Shown here: one piece after another, positions 1 to 20,831 of the stretch | Position numbering within the stretch: position 1 is the stretch's first letter | Layout: each line of letters opens with the position of its first letter | Source of the DNA: a virus | IMG/VR virus record: IMGVR_UViG_3300049927_000048 | Location: 1 to 20,831 of that record | Direction: 5' to 3' (one strand) | DNA: 20,831 nucleotides | Notes under the pieces: model-generated | Databases searched by the model: none | What the model was told of the DNA's origin: nothing | Seen by the model: the letters and a program-made list of their open reading frames with translations, nothing else | Program-made: the position numbers and the translations under genes

Positions 1-174
1 GGTGTTCGACAAGCCGTCCTCAATGGTTGGCGGCTCGCGGCCCATGAGCTTGCAGAAGGTCTCATAGTCCGTCGCGTCGCGCAGGGTCTTGAAGCGCCTC
101 TTCTTGCCCAGCTTGGGCGCCTCGCCCACGAATGAGCCCGTGAGCTTGCCTTGTCGTTTGTCAGCGTAGGCCAT
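1..174 (-). CDS. Tyrosine-type integrase, N-terminal part (runs off left edge)
   Basis: Only the first 58 codons lie in the window; the gene continues past position 1. The visible protein begins MAYADKRQGKLTGSFVGE and goes on with a basic stretch (GKKRRFKTLRDATDYETF) and GREPPT. This resembles the N-terminal arm-binding region of phage tyrosine recombinases, where an MAYADKR-x-GKLTG opening is followed by a strand-rich, basic domain. The catalytic R-H-R-Y residues would lie outside the window, so the assignment rests on this opening alone. The start is supported by a strong GAGGAGG site six to seven bases before the ATG. It is the last visible gene of the minus-strand unit with the MarR-like regulator, which fits control of integration by that regulator. 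An unknown basic phage protein remains possible. Confidence 0.6.
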   Translation of the reverse strand, partial: MAYADKRQGKLTGSFVGEAPKLGKKRRFKTLRDATDYETFCKLMGREPPTIEDGLSNT

Positions 175-193: not shown

Positions 194-331
194 TCAGTGT
201 GTGCAGCCGGCAATGTAAAACACGCCGCCGACTGTGAACCCTTGATCCACGCCCTGGCATTGGCGTGATGTGCCTGCCGCTACAGCCACCATCGCCAGGG
301 TGACAGCTATGGCCAGGATAACGTCCTTCAT
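194..331 (-). CDS. Tiny exported or membrane-anchored protein, 45 aa
   Basis: The protein opens with MKDVILAIAVTLAMVAVAA, a typical signal peptide or single membrane segment (residues 3-20). About 25 polar residues with two cysteines follow (C25 and C43 by my count), ending AGCTH. No family is recognised. Its ATG overlaps the stop of the upstream regulator gene as ATGA, and there is no independent ribosome binding site, so translation is probably coupled. It ends 20 bases before the integrase start. Small signal-bearing proteins are common in phage accessory regions; a role at the membrane is inference. Confidence 0.6.
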   Translation of the reverse strand: MKDVILAIAVTLAMVAVAAGTSRQCQGVDQGFTVGGVFYIAGCTH

Positions 332-762
332 GTGTGCGGTATGGTCTTGAGCGCGCGGACAATCTTGTTCATCAGTGCCTTGCCGATAGGAGTGATCCTG
401 GCGTGGTGTCGGCGCAGGTCCTTGCGGTCCCGCTCTTGGGTGACAAGGCCGAAGCCCTCCTCACCTGCTCGGTTCCTGTCGCCGATGTCGAGTAGATGGC
501 GCGTCATTACTGTGGGGCTGACACCTGCAGATGCAGCGTACTCAGTGACCCCCAGGCCTTCCTCGGTCGCCACCTGCAGGAACGTGTAGACGTACTGCAG
601 AGGCATTGTGGAGCGTAGGTCGCGGAACGGTTCAAGCGCCAGCATAAGAGCACGAGCGAAGCGCTTCTCTTCCTCGGTTAGCGTTGGCTTGAAGTCAGAT
701 GGCATAGTCTTGGCCCCTTGAGCCTCTGTAGGCTGTGGCTGCGTCTCGGTCGTGAACACCAT
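328..762 (-). CDS. MarR-like winged-helix transcriptional regulator, 144 aa
   Basis: Residues about 54-96 form helices ending in a helix-turn-helix (EGLGVTEYAASAGVSPTVMTRHL). A wing follows: GLVTQERDRKDLRRHHARIT (residues 105-124), with the D-x-K-D-x-R-R pattern that matches the MarR wing and the following 'LT..G' helix (ITPIGKALMNKIV). MarR proteins bind palindromic operators as dimers and often repress their own operon. A palindrome, TGTTCC-N6-GGAACA, sits in the promoter at the head of this unit. The ATG at 762 has an AGGGAGG site; a second ATG at residue 20 is preceded by AAGGGG and could also be used. The first 20 residues look disordered. The downstream partners are a tiny membrane protein and the integrase, so control of lysogeny or excision is the most likely job (inference). 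Confidence 0.75.
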   Translation of the reverse strand: MVFTTETQPQPTEAQGAKTMPSDFKPTLTEEEKRFARALMLALEPFRDLRSTMPLQYVYTFLQVATEEGLGVTEYAASAGVSPTVMTRHLLDIGDRNRAGEEGFGLVTQERDRKDLRRHHARITPIGKALMNKIVRALKTIPHT

Positions 763-776
763 AGTTGTTCCCTCCC

Positions 777-899
777 TTACGCGTGGTTGATGATGAGGAG
801 GAACGCCAGCGTGCCCAGGAAGAGCGCGCTAGCGGTAGCTTCTAGTGAGACGGCGACCCACGCCGCCACAGCAATCAAAGAGACCGCAATTGTTATCAT
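777..899 (-). CDS. Tiny hydrophobic membrane protein, 40 aa
   Basis: The protein is almost wholly hydrophobic: MITIAVSLIAVAAWVAVSL, then EATAS, then ALFLGTLAFLLIINHA. That gives two short membrane segments joined by a small polar turn, or one segment plus an amphipathic piece. No family is recognised. The ATG is preceded by CAGGAG at a good distance. It is the first gene after the candidate TTGACA promoter and ends 15 bases before the MarR-like gene. It could act as a membrane partner or leader gene for the regulator. A holin or superinfection-exclusion peptide is possible but unsupported. Confidence 0.6.
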   Translation of the reverse strand: MITIAVSLIAVAAWVAVSLEATASALFLGTLAFLLIINHA

Positions 900-924
900 A
901 TGTAATTACTCCTGCAACGGCCTA

Positions 925-942
925 TGTTCCATAAACGGAACA
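925..942. promoter_or_regulatory. Operator-like inverted repeat TGTTCC-N6-GGAACA
   Basis: The two 6-base arms are perfect inverted repeats with a 6-base spacer (ATAAAC). The site overlaps the -10 region and part of the spacer of the candidate minus-strand promoter at 930-958. A bound dimer there would block RNA polymerase. The MarR-like protein encoded by the second gene of this transcript is the obvious candidate ligand. The site is not a LexA box of the usual Gram-negative types. Confidence 0.5.
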
Positions 943-958
943 CGGTGCCTAATGTCAA
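930..958 (-). promoter_or_regulatory. Sigma70-like promoter for the regulator/integrase unit
   Basis: On the minus strand a perfect -35 box TTGACA (958-953) is followed after 17 bases by TTTATG (935-930), a poor -10 box. The weak -10 overlaps the operator arms. The expected start point lies about 25 bases before the ATG at 899, leaving a short leader that contains the CAGGAG site. The -35 box overlaps the stop codon of the 120-residue gene upstream. Confidence 0.45.
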
Positions 959-1317
959 CCTGTCCTGAGTTGTGCCACATTACCTAAACCGTTTTCCTGC
1001 AATACCTGGGCTACCCTATCAGCGTCTAGCACCAAGCAACCAAGCAGGTCTTCAGTCTCGAAAGGCACCAGAAAAAGACGATTATTCCAGTGGAGTAGAG
1101 CGGGCTCGATGCCTTCCATAAGTATCGACACCAGCCCGGTTTCGGGGTCCACGAAGTCAATGAAACCCTTGGTACCAGCTGATATCTGGCCATACGGCGT
1201 TTCGAAGTCCTTCACCAGTCTGGCTCTTATTCCGACTGTTGGTCCTGATGTCTCCTCTTTGTTTACAAAACACGAAACAGCTTGAAGTCTTGAGTTCAAT
1301 AGAAAAGTTGGCCGCAT
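955..1317 (-). CDS. Hypothetical phage protein with a KDFETPYG / PFETEDLL core, 120 aa
   Basis: From residue about 28 the protein reads as a compact beta-rich domain: VGIRARLVKDFETPYGQISA, then GTKGFIDFVDPETG, then LVSILMEGIEPALLHWNN and RLFLVPFETEDLL. I recall small phage proteins of this shape (a strand-rich fold with an acidic 'FETEDL' end), but none with a known function. The first 27 residues look unlike the rest and come from a locally AT-rich stretch. The ATG at 1317 lacks a good ribosome binding site. A strong GAGGAG lies at 1248-1253 but no in-frame ATG, GTG or TTG follows it at the right distance, so the true start is uncertain. The stop overlaps the next unit's -35 box. Confidence 0.55.
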   Translation of the reverse strand: MRPTFLLNSRLQAVSCFVNKEETSGPTVGIRARLVKDFETPYGQISAGTKGFIDFVDPETGLVSILMEGIEPALLHWNNRLFLVPFETEDLLGCLVLDADRVAQVLQENGLGNVAQLRTG

Positions 1318-5010: not shown

Positions 5011-6045
5011 ATGTCTCTCGATTTTGCCACATTCAGTGGAACCCACGAATACTTTGGAACTACTCAGTTGCCCTTAGAGACCGCGACCCTAATCAAGGAC
5101 CTCGTTACGTCCAACCCGGCCGCTTCGGACCCACTGAGCGCGTCCGACGACCACATGAGGCTGATCAAGTCAGTCCTCAAGACCCAATTCCCCAATCTCC
5201 TGGCGGCCATCACCGCGAGCGACGTCGACCTCAACGCGACCACCGCGATACGCTCGGGCACCGTCCCATATCTGTTCCCACTTGGCACTGTCTTGCTCCC
5301 TGGTGTCACACCGGTTGGCGACACGGACACGGGCCTATGGAGCCCTGGAGCCAATCAGCTCTCGGCGTCTGTCGGAGGCGTTCGCGCTATCGGCATTGCA
5401 GCTGACAAGAGCGTCACGTTCGATGGCGCAGTGAACGTCACAGGCCTCATCAACGGACCCGGGAGCACGATCATCGGCGGCATGATCATGTGGCTCACTG
5501 ACACCCTGCCGACCACTGGTGGCACGTGGTGCTGGGCCAACGGCGGAACGCTCTCGCGCACTGGCAACGGTGCTGCGCTGCTTGCTGCCTGGGGTGGCAC
5601 GATGCCCTATGGCACCGGAGACGGCTCGACGACGTTCAACGTCATCAACATGCAAGAGGTCACGCCGGTCGGTAAGTCGACCATGGGTGGCGCCTCTTCG
5701 CCGGGTCTGCTCAACTCAATTGGCGCTGGCCTCAAGGCGGTCCTCGGTGGCCTCTTCGGCTCCGACACGAACACCCTGACCGTTCCGCAGCTCCCTGCGC
5801 ATACGCACGCCAACACGCTCTCTGATCCGGGGCACGCTCACAACACTGATCCTGTGACAGGTAAGCTAAACGGAGGCTCGTTCGGGCAAACGTCCGGCAC
5901 CAACTTGGCGGTTACCGCAGGTGCACTGGCCACATCGACCAACACCACTGGCGTCACGATCAACAACGCCAGCGTCGGCTCAGGCACTGCTGTGAACAAC
6001 GTTATGCCATCGCGCGCCGTGAACTTCATCATCAGGATTGGCTGA
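5011..6045 (+). CDS. Tail fibre / tail collar-domain protein, 344 aa
   Basis: Residues about 29-63 (KDLVTSNPAASDPLSASDDH, then the IKSVLKTQFPNL helix) match a segment common at the virion-attached end of phage tail fibres. Residues 104-126 (DTDTGLWSPGANQLSASVGG) match another recurrent fibre motif. Residues about 157-225 are a phage tail collar domain (GGMIMWL to MQEVTPVGKSTMGG). Near the end are two His-x-His pairs, HTH (264-266) and HAH (275-277), of the kind that bind metal ions in fibre tips. The end, NVMPSRAVNFIIRI, is also typical. The protein should recognise the host surface. The ATG at 5011 follows AGAGAGG; an in-frame TTG directly before it is unlikely to be used. It is flanked by non-coding DNA on both sides, so it may be an exchangeable cassette. 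Confidence 0.88.
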   Translation: MSLDFATFSGTHEYFGTTQLPLETATLIKDLVTSNPAASDPLSASDDHMRLIKSVLKTQFPNLLAAITASDVDLNATTAIRSGTVPYLFPLGTVLLPGVTPVGDTDTGLWSPGANQLSASVGGVRAIGIAADKSVTFDGAVNVTGLINGPGSTIIGGMIMWLTDTLPTTGGTWCWANGGTLSRTGNGAALLAAWGGTMPYGTGDGSTTFNVINMQEVTPVGKSTMGGASSPGLLNSIGAGLKAVLGGLFGSDTNTLTVPQLPAHTHANTLSDPGHAHNTDPVTGKLNGGSFGQTSGTNLAVTAGALATSTNTTGVTINNASVGSGTAVNNVMPSRAVNFIIRIG

Positions 6046-14730: not shown

Positions 14731-16363
14731 GGCGCAGCTCGCGGCTCGTAAGCGTCTCTTAGAAGATTTCGAGTTCTACGCTCGACACTGCGTCAAGATC
14801 AGGACGAAGGAAGGCACGATTGTCTCCCTCGTTCTGAACCGTGTGCAGAAACGCTTCGTCAAGGCCATCATCGACCAGATGGCACGCACAGGCCGCGTCC
14901 GCATGGTGGTGCTCAAAGCCCGCCAGCAAGGCCTCTCCACCGTCATCTCCGCATGGCAATACTGGTGGCTGTCACAACGCAAGGCCCAAAAGGGTCTCGT
15001 TATGGCCCACGAAGCCGAGAGCACTCAAACGCTCTTCGACATGTACAAGAGGGTCCATGAGAACGTCCCAGATATTGTCAGACCTGGTACAAAGTATTCT
15101 TCCCGAACTGAACTTGTGTTTGACAAGCTCGACACAGGTCTTCGAGTTGCAACTGCAGGCGGACGGGGAGTTGCGCGTGGTGAAACACTCACCGTCGCAC
15201 ATCTATCTGAAGTCGCCTTCTGGCCAGTAGCGTTCGCTAACACCAACTTCAACGGCCTCGTGCAGGCAATCCCCGACGTCGATGGCACCGCCATCTTCTT
15301 GGAGAGCACTGCGCAAGGTATGACCGGCAAATTCCGCGAGATGTGGGTTTCCGCCGAGCAAGGCAGGAGTGGCTACGAGCCGTTCTTCTCTCCCTGGTTC
15401 GAAAGCGACGAGTACCGACAAAAAGCACCTGCTGACTTCCAGCGCACGCCCGAAGAAGAAGACCTGATCAAGGCCTTCTCACACCTCGGGCTTACCAGCG
15501 ATGACCAACTTGAATGGCGTCGTCGCAAGGTTGCTACGAACGGGCTAGACCTGTTCAGACAAGAATACCCTGGCACGGCTGAAGAAGCATTCTTGAGCAC
15601 TGGCCGACCTATCTTCAACAACGACTACGTCCAAGAGCGTGTCCGCACTCCGAAGCAGCCCATCGCACTGATGGCCGTTGAGGAAGCCTACGACCCCAAG
15701 ACCCAACGGCCCCTGCCTCTACACGTGATCCGCAAGAACCCTCGTGGCGAACTGAAAGTCTACCGCAAGGTCGATCCTAAAGAGAGCTACGTGATCGGCG
15801 CCGACGTTGGCATGGGCATCCGTGGTGGTGTGCATGGCCGCAAGGACGGTGACCCATCGGTCGCCCAAATCCTCGACAGCCAGATGCGGCAGGTCGCCGT
15901 ATGGCGTGGCCTGTGTCACCCTGACGTGTTCGCAAAGATACTGCAGGCTCTTGGCTTCCACTACAACAGCGCGCTAATCGCTCCCGAACGTAACAACCAC
16001 GGTCTCGTGACCTGCGTTGCTCTGCGCGACCTGGACTATCCATACATCTACACCGACCAAGTCGAAGGCACACTGGATCAGCAGAAGGACACGATCAACA
16101 TCGGGTTCTTCACCAGCGAGCGTACCAAGCCTCTCATCATTGACAGCCTACGTGCCCGCGACCGCGAGCGTGAGATTGAGATCAACGACGAGACGACGCT
16201 GAAGGAAATGCTCACCTTCGTTGTTACCGAGAGCGGCAAGATGGAAGCCGAAGCGGGACAGCACGACGACTGTGTCATGGCGTTAGCCATCGCATCGTAC
16301 ATCCACGAGGGCAAATGGACGCCCGTGGAGTTCACCGACGATTTCTATACCGAAGCAATTTAA
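14717..16363 (+). CDS. terL: Terminase large subunit (ATPase and nuclease), 548 aa
   Basis: This is the DNA-packaging motor. ATPase part: a Walker A-like loop KARQQGLST (residues 67-75), a hydrophobic strand ending in an acidic pair, LTVAHLSEVAF (about 158-168, E165 as the Walker B acid), and the coupling motif IFLESTAQG (193-201). Nuclease part: acidic residues at GADVG (D363), APERNN (E424) and HDDCVMALA (D517/D518), the usual RNase H-like layout. The length is normal. Codons at roughly 15060-15235 end in A or T more often than those on both sides, covering the stretch up to Walker B; this may be a mosaic patch. It overlaps terS by 14 bases and the portal follows eight bases after the stop. 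Confidence 0.92.
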   Translation: MELTEAQLAARKRLLEDFEFYARHCVKIRTKEGTIVSLVLNRVQKRFVKAIIDQMARTGRVRMVVLKARQQGLSTVISAWQYWWLSQRKAQKGLVMAHEAESTQTLFDMYKRVHENVPDIVRPGTKYSSRTELVFDKLDTGLRVATAGGRGVARGETLTVAHLSEVAFWPVAFANTNFNGLVQAIPDVDGTAIFLESTAQGMTGKFREMWVSAEQGRSGYEPFFSPWFESDEYRQKAPADFQRTPEEEDLIKAFSHLGLTSDDQLEWRRRKVATNGLDLFRQEYPGTAEEAFLSTGRPIFNNDYVQERVRTPKQPIALMAVEEAYDPKTQRPLPLHVIRKNPRGELKVYRKVDPKESYVIGADVGMGIRGGVHGRKDGDPSVAQILDSQMRQVAVWRGLCHPDVFAKILQALGFHYNSALIAPERNNHGLVTCVALRDLDYPYIYTDQVEGTLDQQKDTINIGFFTSERTKPLIIDSLRARDREREIEINDETTLKEMLTFVVTESGKMEAEAGQHDDCVMALAIASYIHEGKWTPVEFTDDFYTEAI

Positions 16364-16371
16364 GGACACTG

Positions 16372-18414
16372 ATGGCTAAAAAGCCAGCTATTCTCACTGA
16401 CGAGGACATCCTCGCAAAGGTGGGCGCGAAGGCCACCAACAGCGTTAGCTGGTTCGATAGCCGCCTCTCGAAAGAGCGTGAACGCGTCACCCGCTACCTG
16501 AACGGCGACCTCCCCAAGCGTACCTCCGAAGGCTCCTCGTCCTACGTGTCGAGCGACGTCTACGACAGCGTCGAAATGATGCGAGCGCAGTTGCTTGAGG
16601 TGTTCGCTGGTGGCGACCACATCGCCCAGTTCGATCCTGATCAGGACATGAACGCTGATGCGTGCCGTGTCGCTACCGAGTACGCCTCCTACGTCATCTT
16701 CCGGCAGAATGAAGGTTACAACATCTTCAATAGCGTCATCTACGACGGGCTCACATCCCGCGCAGGCGTAGCTAAAATCTACTGGGAGAAGAAGGCCGAC
16801 TACAGCGAAGAGACATTCGAAGGTCTATCCCACGACGACGCTCATGCGCTCGCCTCGCAGGAAGACGTCGACGAGTTCGACGGCACCGAGGACCCGGCCA
16901 CAGGCACCTTCAGCGGCACGCTTGTCCGCAAGAAGGACTGCTCCAAGTGCCGCATCATCGAGATGGCGCCCGAGGAGTTCCTGATCGAACCTTTGGCCAC
17001 CAGCATTCCCGTCGCTACCTACTGCGGCCACCGCACGCCTAAGACCAAGGCTGAGCTAGTGGACATGGGCTACGACAAGAAGATGGTCATGGCCATACCA
17101 AGTGATGAAGCCAAGGAGCTGCAGTTCAGCCCCGAGGTCCTCGCGCGCACCCGGCCCACGCATTCGAACGACGCTCTCGACAATCCTATCCAGGACGAAC
17201 TCGAATACGTTGTCTTCTACGAGAGCTACGTGCGTATGCAGATCGACAGCACCAAGGGTGTGCGTCTCTACAAAATCTGTCACGCCGGCAACACCATCCT
17301 CGACAAGGAAGAGGTCGATAAGGCCCCCTTCTTGGCCTACATTCCGCTTCCGATCCCGCACGTCTTCTACGGCAACAACTACGCCGCACGCGTCATCCAT
17401 ACGCAGAACGCCAACACGGTCCTCTTCCGTGGCGTGCTGGACCACACCGCTATCACGACGAACCCTCGTTACCTTGTGGTCAACGGCGGCCTGATGAACC
17501 CCCGCGAGTTGCTAGACAACCGCCTTGGTGGTGCCGTCAACGTCCGCCGGCCTGACAGCGTCGTTCCGATGCCGCAGAACCCGCTGAACTCATACGTCTT
17601 CCAGACTATGAACCTGCTGGACACCAAGAACGAAAAGTCCACAGGCATCTCTGCACTCTCGCAGGGCCTGAACAAGGACGCCATCTCCACGCAGAACTCT
17701 AAGGGTCTCGTGGACAACATGATGAAGGCGTCCTCTGGGCGTCAGAAGATCATGGCCCGCAACTTCGCCTACAACTTCCTCGTCCCGCTCATGATCGAAG
17801 TCATCCGACTTACCATCTTGAACGAGGACAAGCAGAAGGTGATCGAAGTCGCTGGTGGACCAATAGCCATCAACGTTGCTGACTGGACCGAACGCAAGAC
17901 TTGCACGGTCTCGGCTCACCTCGGGTATGGAGAGAAGGACACCGCAGCAGCCGAGCTGACGCAGGGCTACGAAATGATGGCCAAGGACCAAGGTCTCGGC
18001 AACATGTTCGGTGGCAAGCAGCGTTACGAGATGCTGCACGACGTTGCGAAGCTCAAGGGCTTCACTCGGTTCTCCGCGTATCTGGACCCGAATGCACCGC
18101 CTCCGCAGCCCGATCCTCTCAAGGTTCGCGAGCTGGACATCAGGGACAAGGTCGCTCAGGCGGCTCTCGGTGGCCTCAACATCAAGCAGCAGGACGCCTC
18201 GCGTCTCTACGCTCTCGACCAGTCCAAGCTCGAACAGCACGGACAGGAGATGTCTCTCAAGGCTCTCGATCACGACCGCACACACGACCGTCAGGACGCA
18301 GAGACTACTGCGCGTATCCAGACTGCCAACGAGCAGCTCAAAATCGAGCACAAGCTTGCAGACAACGCCAAGGCCAAGTTGGCCGTGTCCGCGTCAGCTA
18401 ACCCGAGGCCCTAA
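16372..18414 (+). CDS. Portal protein (P22/SU10 type), 680 aa
   Basis: Twelve copies of this protein form the DNA channel at one capsid vertex. The segment SSYVSSDVYDSVEMMRAQLL, then EVFAGGDHIAQFDP, near residues 56-90, is typical of P22-type portals. So are the later FYGNNYAARVIHTQNANTVL (about 336-360) and NPRYLVVNGGLMNP regions. The C-terminal 70 residues are a charged helix (EQHGQEMSLKALDHDRTHDR), fitting the crown or barrel. The frame is open to 16315, but I use the ATG at 16372, which has TAAGGA before it and does not cut into terL. Size is close to the P22 portal (725 residues). The stop overlaps the next start (TAATG). Confidence 0.88.
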   Translation: MAKKPAILTDEDILAKVGAKATNSVSWFDSRLSKERERVTRYLNGDLPKRTSEGSSSYVSSDVYDSVEMMRAQLLEVFAGGDHIAQFDPDQDMNADACRVATEYASYVIFRQNEGYNIFNSVIYDGLTSRAGVAKIYWEKKADYSEETFEGLSHDDAHALASQEDVDEFDGTEDPATGTFSGTLVRKKDCSKCRIIEMAPEEFLIEPLATSIPVATYCGHRTPKTKAELVDMGYDKKMVMAIPSDEAKELQFSPEVLARTRPTHSNDALDNPIQDELEYVVFYESYVRMQIDSTKGVRLYKICHAGNTILDKEEVDKAPFLAYIPLPIPHVFYGNNYAARVIHTQNANTVLFRGVLDHTAITTNPRYLVVNGGLMNPRELLDNRLGGAVNVRRPDSVVPMPQNPLNSYVFQTMNLLDTKNEKSTGISALSQGLNKDAISTQNSKGLVDNMMKASSGRQKIMARNFAYNFLVPLMIEVIRLTILNEDKQKVIEVAGGPIAINVADWTERKTCTVSAHLGYGEKDTAAAELTQGYEMMAKDQGLGNMFGGKQRYEMLHDVAKLKGFTRFSAYLDPNAPPPQPDPLKVRELDIRDKVAQAALGGLNIKQQDASRLYALDQSKLEQHGQEMSLKALDHDRTHDRQDAETTARIQTANEQLKIEHKLADNAKAKLAVSASANPRP

Positions 18415-19242: not shown

Positions 19243-20283
19243 ATGTCATCCACCCATCTGGGCGATGCTGCTAATGACTACCCTGATGCGATTGAAGGCG
19301 ACGACGCCGCTATCGCAGCTTTCTTCCCGGCCGACGACGACGCTTCCAAAAAGAAGCCATCTGAAAAAGCCAAGCCTAAAGACGAACCCGAAGAGCAAGA
19401 CGAAGCCGACGAAGACGAAGCCGAAGACCAGTCCGACGAAAGTCCAGACGAAGACGGCGACGAGAACGAAGGTGATGACGACGAAGGCAAAGAGACGAAG
19501 GACAAGAAGTACGCTGACGACAGCGACGAAACCTACGTCAAGATCAAGGTTGGCGACGAGACCCACGAGGTTAAAGTCAACGACCTGAAGCGCCTGTTCG
19601 GTCAAGAGGCTTCTCTCACCCGCAACTCCCAAGAGGTCGCTGAGCAGCGCAAGCAAGTCGAGCAGAACACCGCGAAGAACATCGCGGCCTATGACGTCAT
19701 GCTCAAGCGCGTGTCTGAGCGAGCCCAGCAGTACAGGGACCTCCCCTGGACGCAGCTGATGAAAGACCCGAACGTTCCCGCCGACCAGCTTCAGGCTCTG
19801 CAGGCCGAAGCACAGAAGGCGTTCGAAGACGAGGGCTTCATCAAGAACGAACTCGACGGCTTCATGTCGAAGGTCCAAGAGACGCAGAAGGTTGAGCGCG
19901 CGAAGGCTGCTCAGGTCTGCATCAAGGCACTGACGACAACCGACAGCCCCCATCACATCAAGGACTGGAGCGAAGCGGTCTACAACGACCTGCGTACGTT
20001 CGGTACCGAGATGGGCTTGGATAAGGAGATGGTCAATGGCCTCACCGATCCTGGCGCTTTCAAAATTCTCCACATGGCCATGCAGTTCAAGCGTGGCGCG
20101 ACGCAGGTCGTGACCAAGAAGGTCAACAAGACCCCGACGAAGATTGTGAAGAACTCTGCTGCTACCCCGACCGCTCGGGGCACCAAGGCCACCGCTGACG
20201 CAAAGGCTGCTGTGAAGCAGGCCGCGAAGTCCGGCGACCGTAAGGACGCGGAAGACGCATTCTTCGCCCTCATGGGCGATTGA
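19243..20283 (+). CDS. Capsid scaffolding protein, 346 aa
   Basis: The protein has the charge layout typical of phage scaffolds. Residues about 17-95 are extremely acidic (DEADEDEAEDQSDESPDEDG). The middle is long and helical (RNSQEVAEQRKQVEQNTAKN, later QLQALQAEAQKAFEDEG), likely a coiled coil. The C-terminal region is basic (TKKVNKTPTKIVKN, KAAVKQAAKSGDRKDAEDAF) and would contact the capsid protein. A small VKIKVGDETHEVKVNDLKRL motif (about 99-118) recurs in scaffolds of this kind. It sits directly before the major capsid gene. The ribosome binding site is weak. No protease motif is seen. Confidence 0.82.
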   Translation: MSSTHLGDAANDYPDAIEGDDAAIAAFFPADDDASKKKPSEKAKPKDEPEEQDEADEDEAEDQSDESPDEDGDENEGDDDEGKETKDKKYADDSDETYVKIKVGDETHEVKVNDLKRLFGQEASLTRNSQEVAEQRKQVEQNTAKNIAAYDVMLKRVSERAQQYRDLPWTQLMKDPNVPADQLQALQAEAQKAFEDEGFIKNELDGFMSKVQETQKVERAKAAQVCIKALTTTDSPHHIKDWSEAVYNDLRTFGTEMGLDKEMVNGLTDPGAFKILHMAMQFKRGATQVVTKKVNKTPTKIVKNSAATPTARGTKATADAKAAVKQAAKSGDRKDAEDAFFALMGD

Positions 20284-20323: not shown

Positions 20324-20831
20324 ATGGCTACCTATCAGACCTTCCAGATGGTCGGCATCAAAGAGAGCATCGCCGACGTCATCACCAACCTCTCCCCGCG
20401 CAAGACGCCCTTCCAGAGCGCCATCGGCAACGAAAAGGTGACCCAGCCCCTGTTCCAGTGGCAGGAAGACAGCCTGCGCGCCGTCGCGACCAACGCTGCG
20501 GTCGAAGGCGCGGACGCGTCCTTCATCACGGCGGTCCCGACCGTCATGCGCAATAACTTCACGCAAATCTTCACCGAAAGCGTGCAGGTTGCTGACCGTG
20601 CGGACATCGTGTCCACCTACGGCCGCAAGCGCGAAATGGCCTACCAGATGGCGAAGTCTGCCGCTCAGGTAAAGCGCGACTTCGAAAACGCCCTCGTTGG
20701 CAACGCCCAGGCGAAGGCCTCGGGTTCGGCTGCCGTTGCGTCCACCCTGGCTTCGGTCCAGGTGCAGCTCGATCCGTCTACCGTGTCCTACGCTGGCGCG
20801 GCGACCAACCTGACGGAAGCTGTACTCGTTG
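20324..20831 (+). CDS. Major capsid protein (SU10/DUF5309-like), N-terminal 169 residues
   Basis: The gene is cut by the window end. The visible part opens MATYQTFQMVGIKESIADVI and continues with SPRKTPFQSAIGNEKVTQPL, FQWQEDSLRAVATNAAVEGA and TYGRKREMAYQMAKSAAQVK. This string of motifs (S-P-x-KTPF, FQWQ-x-DSLR, VEGADAS, TYGR-x-x-E-x-AYQ-x-AK) is that of the HK97-fold major capsid family found in SU10-like and related podoviruses (DUF5309). Hundreds of copies build the head. It directly follows the scaffold gene, as expected. The start is the only reasonable ATG. Confidence 0.85.
   Translation, partial: MATYQTFQMVGIKESIADVITNLSPRKTPFQSAIGNEKVTQPLFQWQEDSLRAVATNAAVEGADASFITAVPTVMRNNFTQIFTESVQVADRADIVSTYGRKREMAYQMAKSAAQVKRDFENALVGNAQAKASGSAAVASTLASVQVQLDPSTVSYAGAATNLTEAVLV

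Follow-up and report, generated by a model that had tools for sequence, protein, structure and literature searches.

A MarR-like regulator gene and a conserved candidate operator in the putative lysogeny operon of temperate podoviruses encoding a T7-like RNA polymerase

INTRODUCTION

For temperate phages that encode a T7-like RNA polymerase, lysogeny is believed to be regulated by a MarR-type protein, and no operator sequence is named in the literature that we found. In Pseudomonas phage LUZ100, a MarR-like gene lies directly upstream of a tyrosine integrase gene, followed by a T7-like RNA polymerase gene, and a single host promoter co-transcribes marR and int (PMC10134795). Lysogeny control has been proposed there, and a published hypothesis, relayed in the LUZ100 paper, holds that MarR controls both lysogeny and the RNA polymerase (PMC10134795, citing Boeckman 2022); the strings 'operator' and 'palindrom' do not occur in the main text of that paper. 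In the Rhizobium phages RHEph01 and vB_RleA_TRX32-1 (genus Paadamvirus) and the Pelagibacter phage HTVC019P, marR likewise adjoins int, together with the RNA polymerase gene; TRX32-1 was induced from a lysogen, and tRNA-gene integration is reported for the Paadamvirus and HTVC019P groups. The annotated phages in which marR adjoins int further include RHEph21, YIMV22061, and Pasto, the labels of some being different, and in cyanophage P-SSP2 a MarR-like gene (gp0.7) lies ahead of the RNA polymerase gene.

The present study concerns a 20.8-kb virus record from IMG/VR, the whole of which is hereafter called the window, and its relatives. An earlier note on this DNA had read one end of it as a self-contained regulator, operator, and integrase unit forming a lysogeny or excision switch. 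Considering the results below, we propose, with a probability of roughly two in three, that this segment serves a temperate podovirus as its lysogeny operon, in which a MarR-like dimer binds GTTCC-N6-GGAAC and represses its own transcription.

RESULTS

The promoter, the palindrome, and the order of four open reading frames (ORFs) claimed in the earlier note were all present on the minus strand (Table 1), and each of the two −10 options matched the consensus at 3/6 positions. The ORF of the 45-aa peptide matched phrog_22098 (E = 5e-4). The integrase fragment of the window alone matched no family, and its N-terminus resembled the full-length integrase of the relative L002; marR lies directly upstream of a tyrosine integrase gene on the same strand, of which the window contains the start and the relatives the full length. 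A scan for sigma70-like promoters on the same strand found none by its criteria inside the unit, the stretch between marR and int included, which favours a single operon. The tight packing of the genes is in line with the inclusion of the integrase in the same unit, and nothing pointed to separate int transcription. The unit was, however, less self-contained than had been claimed: it would belong, as a terminal part, to a longer region of marR, int, and RNA polymerase, the polymerase part of which would lie beyond the contig end. The window ends within int and contains no RNA polymerase match.

Table 1 Coordinates of features in the window and its relatives
Feature	Record	Position	Strand	Remarks
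Integrase start, 58 aa	Window	1..174	minus	Behind AGGAGGA; cut by contig end at base 1
45-aa peptide	Window	194..331	minus	N-terminal signal or membrane segment; ATG overlaps marR stop
MarR-like winged-helix regulator, 144 aa	Window	328..762	minus	Conserved part starts near Met20
40-aa hydrophobic peptide	Window	777..899 (899-777)	minus	With Shine-Dalgarno; probable two-helix membrane hairpin
Candidate operator	Window	925..942 (942-925)	minus	TGTTCC-GTTTAT-GGAACA; perfect palindrome covering −10
Weak −10	Window	930..936	minus	Spacer of 16 nt for GTTTAT (936-931), 17 nt for TTTATG (935-930)
−35 box	Window	953..958 (958-953)	minus	Perfect TTGACA; overlaps TGA stop of 120-aa gene
120-aa gene	Window	955..1317	minus	Upstream of promoter; weak DUF4314 similarity; conserved neighbour
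SU10/phiM5-type head genes	Window	16318-18414, 19243-20283, 20324-20830
XRE-type (HTH_3) regulator	L002	5773-6183		Between marR and int
Small lipoprotein	L002	5381-5653
Small lipoprotein	L005	about 5363-5565
Aromatic/basic small ORF	L021	3030-3185
Aromatic/basic small ORF	L025	2147-2314
Aromatic/basic small ORF	L023	5847-6134
Aromatic/basic small ORF	L037	3214-3342
Prophage (L067/L068)	Bradyrhizobium sp. BR 10289, contig C60	101340-146841

The regulator matched phrog_9665, annotated as 'transcriptional regulator' (E = 4.7e-19), and no Pfam family. PF01047 was weakly matched by four of ten regulator relatives (best E 0.0084), and because the window regulator matched no curated MarR profile in Pfam, the name is kept at MarR-like. 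Searched against the PDB, a profile of the ten relatives hit chains of the MarR family for the most part, with a best E of 0.0025. The AlphaFold2 model of the regulator contained a winged-helix core (pLDDT 85.6, pTM 0.72), and the 50 PDB matches listed in a structure search with Foldseek were all MarR-type regulators (lowest E 9e-5, with TM about 0.5), the best named match among viral models being Gp0.7 of cyanophage P-SSP2. According to the model and these matches, the window regulator has a MarR-type fold, in agreement with the MarR-like label of the earlier note. Typical MarR proteins dimerise through the N- and C-terminal helices alpha1, alpha5, and alpha6; the model, a monomer, has one C-terminal helix (125-139), alpha6 being absent. 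Relatives of the regulator in IMG/VR showed 59-79% identity at first and 45-60% in a later search.

The candidate operator TGTTCC-N6-GGAACA occurs as a single exact copy across the whole window. In the 45 nt behind the −35 box, an equally good palindrome arose in 1.7% of shuffles; the palindrome by itself is thus weak evidence, and its weight comes from conservation. When promoter regions were anchored on TTGACA, this box was kept at the same promoter position in L002, L003, and L004, followed by GTTCC-N5-GGAAC in L002, GTTCC-TATAGT-GGAAC in L003, and GTTCC-TATACA-GGAAC in L004, the spacers TATAGT and TATACA being themselves the −10. The distance from TTGACA to the palindrome was equal in the window, L003, and L004, and 5 nt shorter in L002. 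Conservation of the palindrome in relatives, which had been suggested as a check, was thus found at the same promoter in these three loci, which represent the nearest relatives that have the region. In a de novo inverted-repeat search (5-bp arms, gap 4-8, up to 1.2 kb upstream of marR), GTTCC was the sole arm common to all five loci whose regulator has the recognition helix PTVMTRHLL (the window and L002-L005), and at gaps 5-6 none of 400 block shuffles gave any arm in at least four of the five. The arm lay at the promoter in four of these loci; L005 is the exception, its exact palindrome being located 825 bp upstream of marR, within another gene and at no recognised promoter. Six loci with other recognition helices (L030-L032, L034, L035, and L049) all lacked the shared GTTCC arm. 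At the marR promoter of the integrated prophage described below, a lone GTTCC half-site accompanied an altered recognition helix, SSSMTRNLL, which at the sequence level is in line with co-variation of operator and helix, short of proof.

When whole contigs were scanned, G001-G004 and the window each carried one exact operator copy, and G005, the contig of which begins inside marR, carried none. The exact pattern TTGACA-N11-GTTCC-N6-GGAAC had 12 matches in IMG/VR, of which two were the marR promoters of L003 and L004 and ten were chance-like on inspection by eye. A host regulator might bind the palindrome while the MarR-like protein works elsewhere, given that the site is short and that binding of MarR to it is a prediction. 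However, the palindrome tracks the recognition helix, being present in 5/5 PTVMTRHLL loci against 0/6 others, and has no further copies in the phage genomes, and we regard a host regulator as quite improbable. Binding by the MarR-like dimer is preferred.

The order marR, small genes, integrase, and T7-like RNA polymerase was found in L002-L004, L006, L030-L032, L034, and L035; the RNA polymerase of L005 is split across the contig ends, and the L049 record also has one. All seven long relative records searched contained a T7-like RNA polymerase. A gene with HTH_3 (CI/Cro-type) was absent from eight of nine lineage records, namely the window and G002-G004, G006, G007, G010, and G011, among which the window and G002 are fragments. 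The sole record with such a gene was G001 (locus L002), the nearest relative of the window, in which an XRE-type regulator is encoded between marR and int. The earlier suggestion that MarR stands in for the CI/Cro pair is in line with eight of the nine records. Exact direct terminal repeats were present at the contig ends of G001 and G003 (about 127 and 387 bp, respectively), which are thus probably complete, circularly mapped genomes despite their 'linear' class.

The MarR-like protein might instead be an early transcription-takeover factor, either an activator or a redirector of transcription from host to phage, with the palindrome marking activation or simple feedback. The marR and RNA polymerase genes of HTVC022P are highly expressed early in infection, and the MarR of P-SSP7 has been considered a contributor to the redirection of transcription (PMC12753301); furthermore, P-SSP2 has a marR homologue with no integrase candidate found beside it. 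However, a palindrome over the −10 is placed as a repressor site would be, not an activator site, marR stays coupled to int in this lineage, and the sole exact site lies at its own promoter. Such a takeover role is therefore considered unlikely, and autorepression of a lysogeny operon is retained as the preferred explanation.

In most relatives, the gap between int and the RNA polymerase gene contained a −35 of TTGT or TTGACA type, separated by about 16 nt from a −10 of TATA type, and a GC-rich hairpin ending in a T-run. Palindromes were centred on the −10 of this putative RNA polymerase promoter in L003, L004, and L006, and a shorter one in L032. Those behind int in L003, L004, and L006 were GCTCCCTATACGGAGC, CGCTTCCTATAAGAAGCG, and GAGTGCCTATAGACACTC, respectively, with arms that vary between phages. 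A second MarR operator at this promoter found no support, as none of these palindromes has GTTCC arms and even the best-scoring matches did not outdo shuffles (P 0.21-0.90). The element was also rejected as a repeated phage-polymerase promoter, being absent among the best 25 repeats listed in self-comparisons of G001, G003, and G004 (24-nt windows, 20 identical).

Scanning genomes with the MarR alignment gave no match; the RNA polymerase alignment led to one integrated relative, in Bradyrhizobium sp. BR 10289. This prophage comprises 45,459 bp bounded by a 43-bp core at attL and attR. The start of the RNA polymerase gene adjoins the host genes and the attL core, and marR-int lies about 43 kb away at the opposite end. 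This core corresponds to the 5' half of tRNA-Trp(CCA). An intact tRNA-Trp, detected by ARAGORN, abuts the int stop codon with 0 nt between them; ORFs named by eye as secE and nusG come next, and the attL side keeps only the 5' half of the tRNA and the host upstream DNA. No further tRNA-Trp was detected in the BR 10289 assembly, the next tRNA match being tRNA-Met, and one other anticodon-pattern site in the assembly was no tRNA. Islander lists a displaced 5' fragment in just 159 of 3919 tDNA islands (PMC4383910). In the free relatives, 5' tRNA halves followed int by 14-20 nt, tRNA-Ser-like in L003 and L004 and tRNA-Cys-like in L005 and L006 (isotype by reading); L002 has a reversed 3' part of a tRNA, read as tRNA-Ser, and no tRNA-like piece was recognised in L049. 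At the attP of these free relatives, ARAGORN recognised no full tRNA, as expected where half tRNAs are present, and Rfam tRNA scores were below gathering.

The prophage also bears on whether MarR has a silencing role. MarR may merely trim the expression of int and the membrane peptide, with integration setting lysogeny by detaching the RNA polymerase gene, without a classical immunity repressor; this overlaps our best explanation and differs in that MarR would take no part in silencing. The presence of a single exact operator in each complete genome accords with such trimming, as does the placement of the prophage RNA polymerase gene, beside the attL core, and marR-int at opposite ends. However, a sigma70-like TTGTAT-N16-TATACG, followed by a short terminator-like hairpin, lies between the attL core and the RNA polymerase gene, suggesting that something should still hold the polymerase down. 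Trimming is therefore a possible account, less probable than an operon in which MarR contributes to silencing.

The very hydrophobic peptide of 37-40 aa encoded ahead of marR has a glutamate at residue 19 or 20 in all ten homologues compared (the window, L002-L005, L031, L034, L035, L049, and L067), and between L003 and L004 its dN was 0.22 and its dS 0.67. The 40-aa ORF of the window thus probably encodes a phage membrane microprotein with an invariant glutamate, which appears to be new here. In L002, L005, and the prophage operon (L067), a lipoprotein takes the place of the 45-aa peptide between marR and int. This small lipoprotein is conserved, with a lipobox followed by a READD..C.KI..ERND.RP-like stretch, and is unrelated to the 45-aa signal peptide of the window; it is possibly a superinfection-exclusion protein. 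Judging from their position in a putative lysogeny operon, the membrane peptide and the lipoprotein or signal peptide might act in superinfection exclusion or in controlling MarR at the membrane. Directly upstream of marR in annotated phages is another small ORF with a recurring aromatic/basic pattern (Table 1), perhaps a family of its own.

The portal protein of the window matched PF23899 (4.6e-154), and its virion genes also matched the SU10-type families phrog_1328 (head) and phrog_3927 (scaffold). The long relative records with RNA polymerase carry the same portal type, so that a T7-like RNA polymerase and lysogeny module is joined to an SU10/phiM5-type head in a mosaic seen over the window, G001, G003, G004, G006, G007, G010, G011, and G012. 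The T7-like RNA polymerase was absent from both head relatives tested (phiM5 and MW202481), and the SU10-type portal from all three marR phages tested (RHEph01, LUZ100, and YIMV22061). The T7-type portal PF12236, a mark of Autographiviridae, matched 0/9 relatives in a search run without a positive control, and the lineage is not assigned to that family here.

DISCUSSION

We propose the following scenario for the lysogeny operon. Transcription would proceed from the promoter through the membrane microprotein, marR, the small exported peptide, and the integrase. A MarR-like dimer on GTTCC-N6-GGAAC over its own −10 would block host RNA polymerase, and the whole operon, including the integrase, would be kept at a self-limited level by autorepression. 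In the circular phage genome, attP would separate int from the T7-like RNA polymerase gene located downstream. Integration there would sever the polymerase gene from the operon and from all upstream early promoters, helping the lytic programme to stay silent. Given a single exact site per genome, the chief target of MarR may be its own operon, and silencing may depend largely on the architecture. The lysogeny or excision switch of the earlier note gains from the finding of a relative as an integrated prophage, but a switch in which one repressor silences the lytic genes is a conjecture, given the single exact site per complete genome and an operator at the RNA polymerase promoter that is statistically unsupported. 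The sensing of a small molecule or of membrane state, suggested in that note, is likewise conjectural. Points against our explanation are the weak −10 of the window, the L005 palindrome away from the promoter, the extra XRE-type regulator in L002, the model without a second C-terminal helix, and the lack of a demonstrable operator at the RNA polymerase promoter.

The gene order in the prophage suggests, tentatively and with odds against it, that the MarR-autoregulated operon supplies a single-copy essential host tRNA placed behind int, with integration cutting the RNA polymerase gene from upstream promoters. A promoter within the prophage end could alternatively be the source of tRNA transcription. 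If the operon does supply the tRNA, repressor feedback would set its supply, tying host survival to a transcribed prophage, and should transcription follow the layout seen around tRNA-Trp, an operon of the prophage would, unusually, be in charge of an essential host RNA. The exact conserved candidate operator, the host genus with an integrated copy, and the clean architecture of this lineage make the role of a phage MarR directly testable.

Compared with the window lineage, LUZ100 has about 30% MarR identity, a tRNA-Leu between marR and int, a different small upstream ORF, and a T7-like genome organisation with no SU10-type portal match. RHEph01, TRX32-1, and HTVC019P differ in being classed as Autographiviridae and in having an unrelated upstream peptide, RHEph01 also being without an SU10-type portal, and the GTTCC palindrome was not among the repeats listed for RHEph01 and HTVC019P. 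P-SSP2 gp0.7, the closest named viral fold match, shows 26% identity, with no integrase candidate found adjoining. The Sinorhizobium phage phiM5 and the LUZ24-like and SU10-like podoviruses share the portal family at roughly 23-29% identity, whereas phiM5 is without a T7-like RNA polymerase and its regulator is annotated as P22 c2-like. Operons of marR and int are already known from LUZ100, RHEph01, and HTVC019P, and the window refines the switch proposed for T7-like temperate phages; judging from sequence, the candidate operator, the invariant-glutamate microprotein, the non-T7 head, and the tRNA-Trp reconstituted behind the prophage int appear to be new here.
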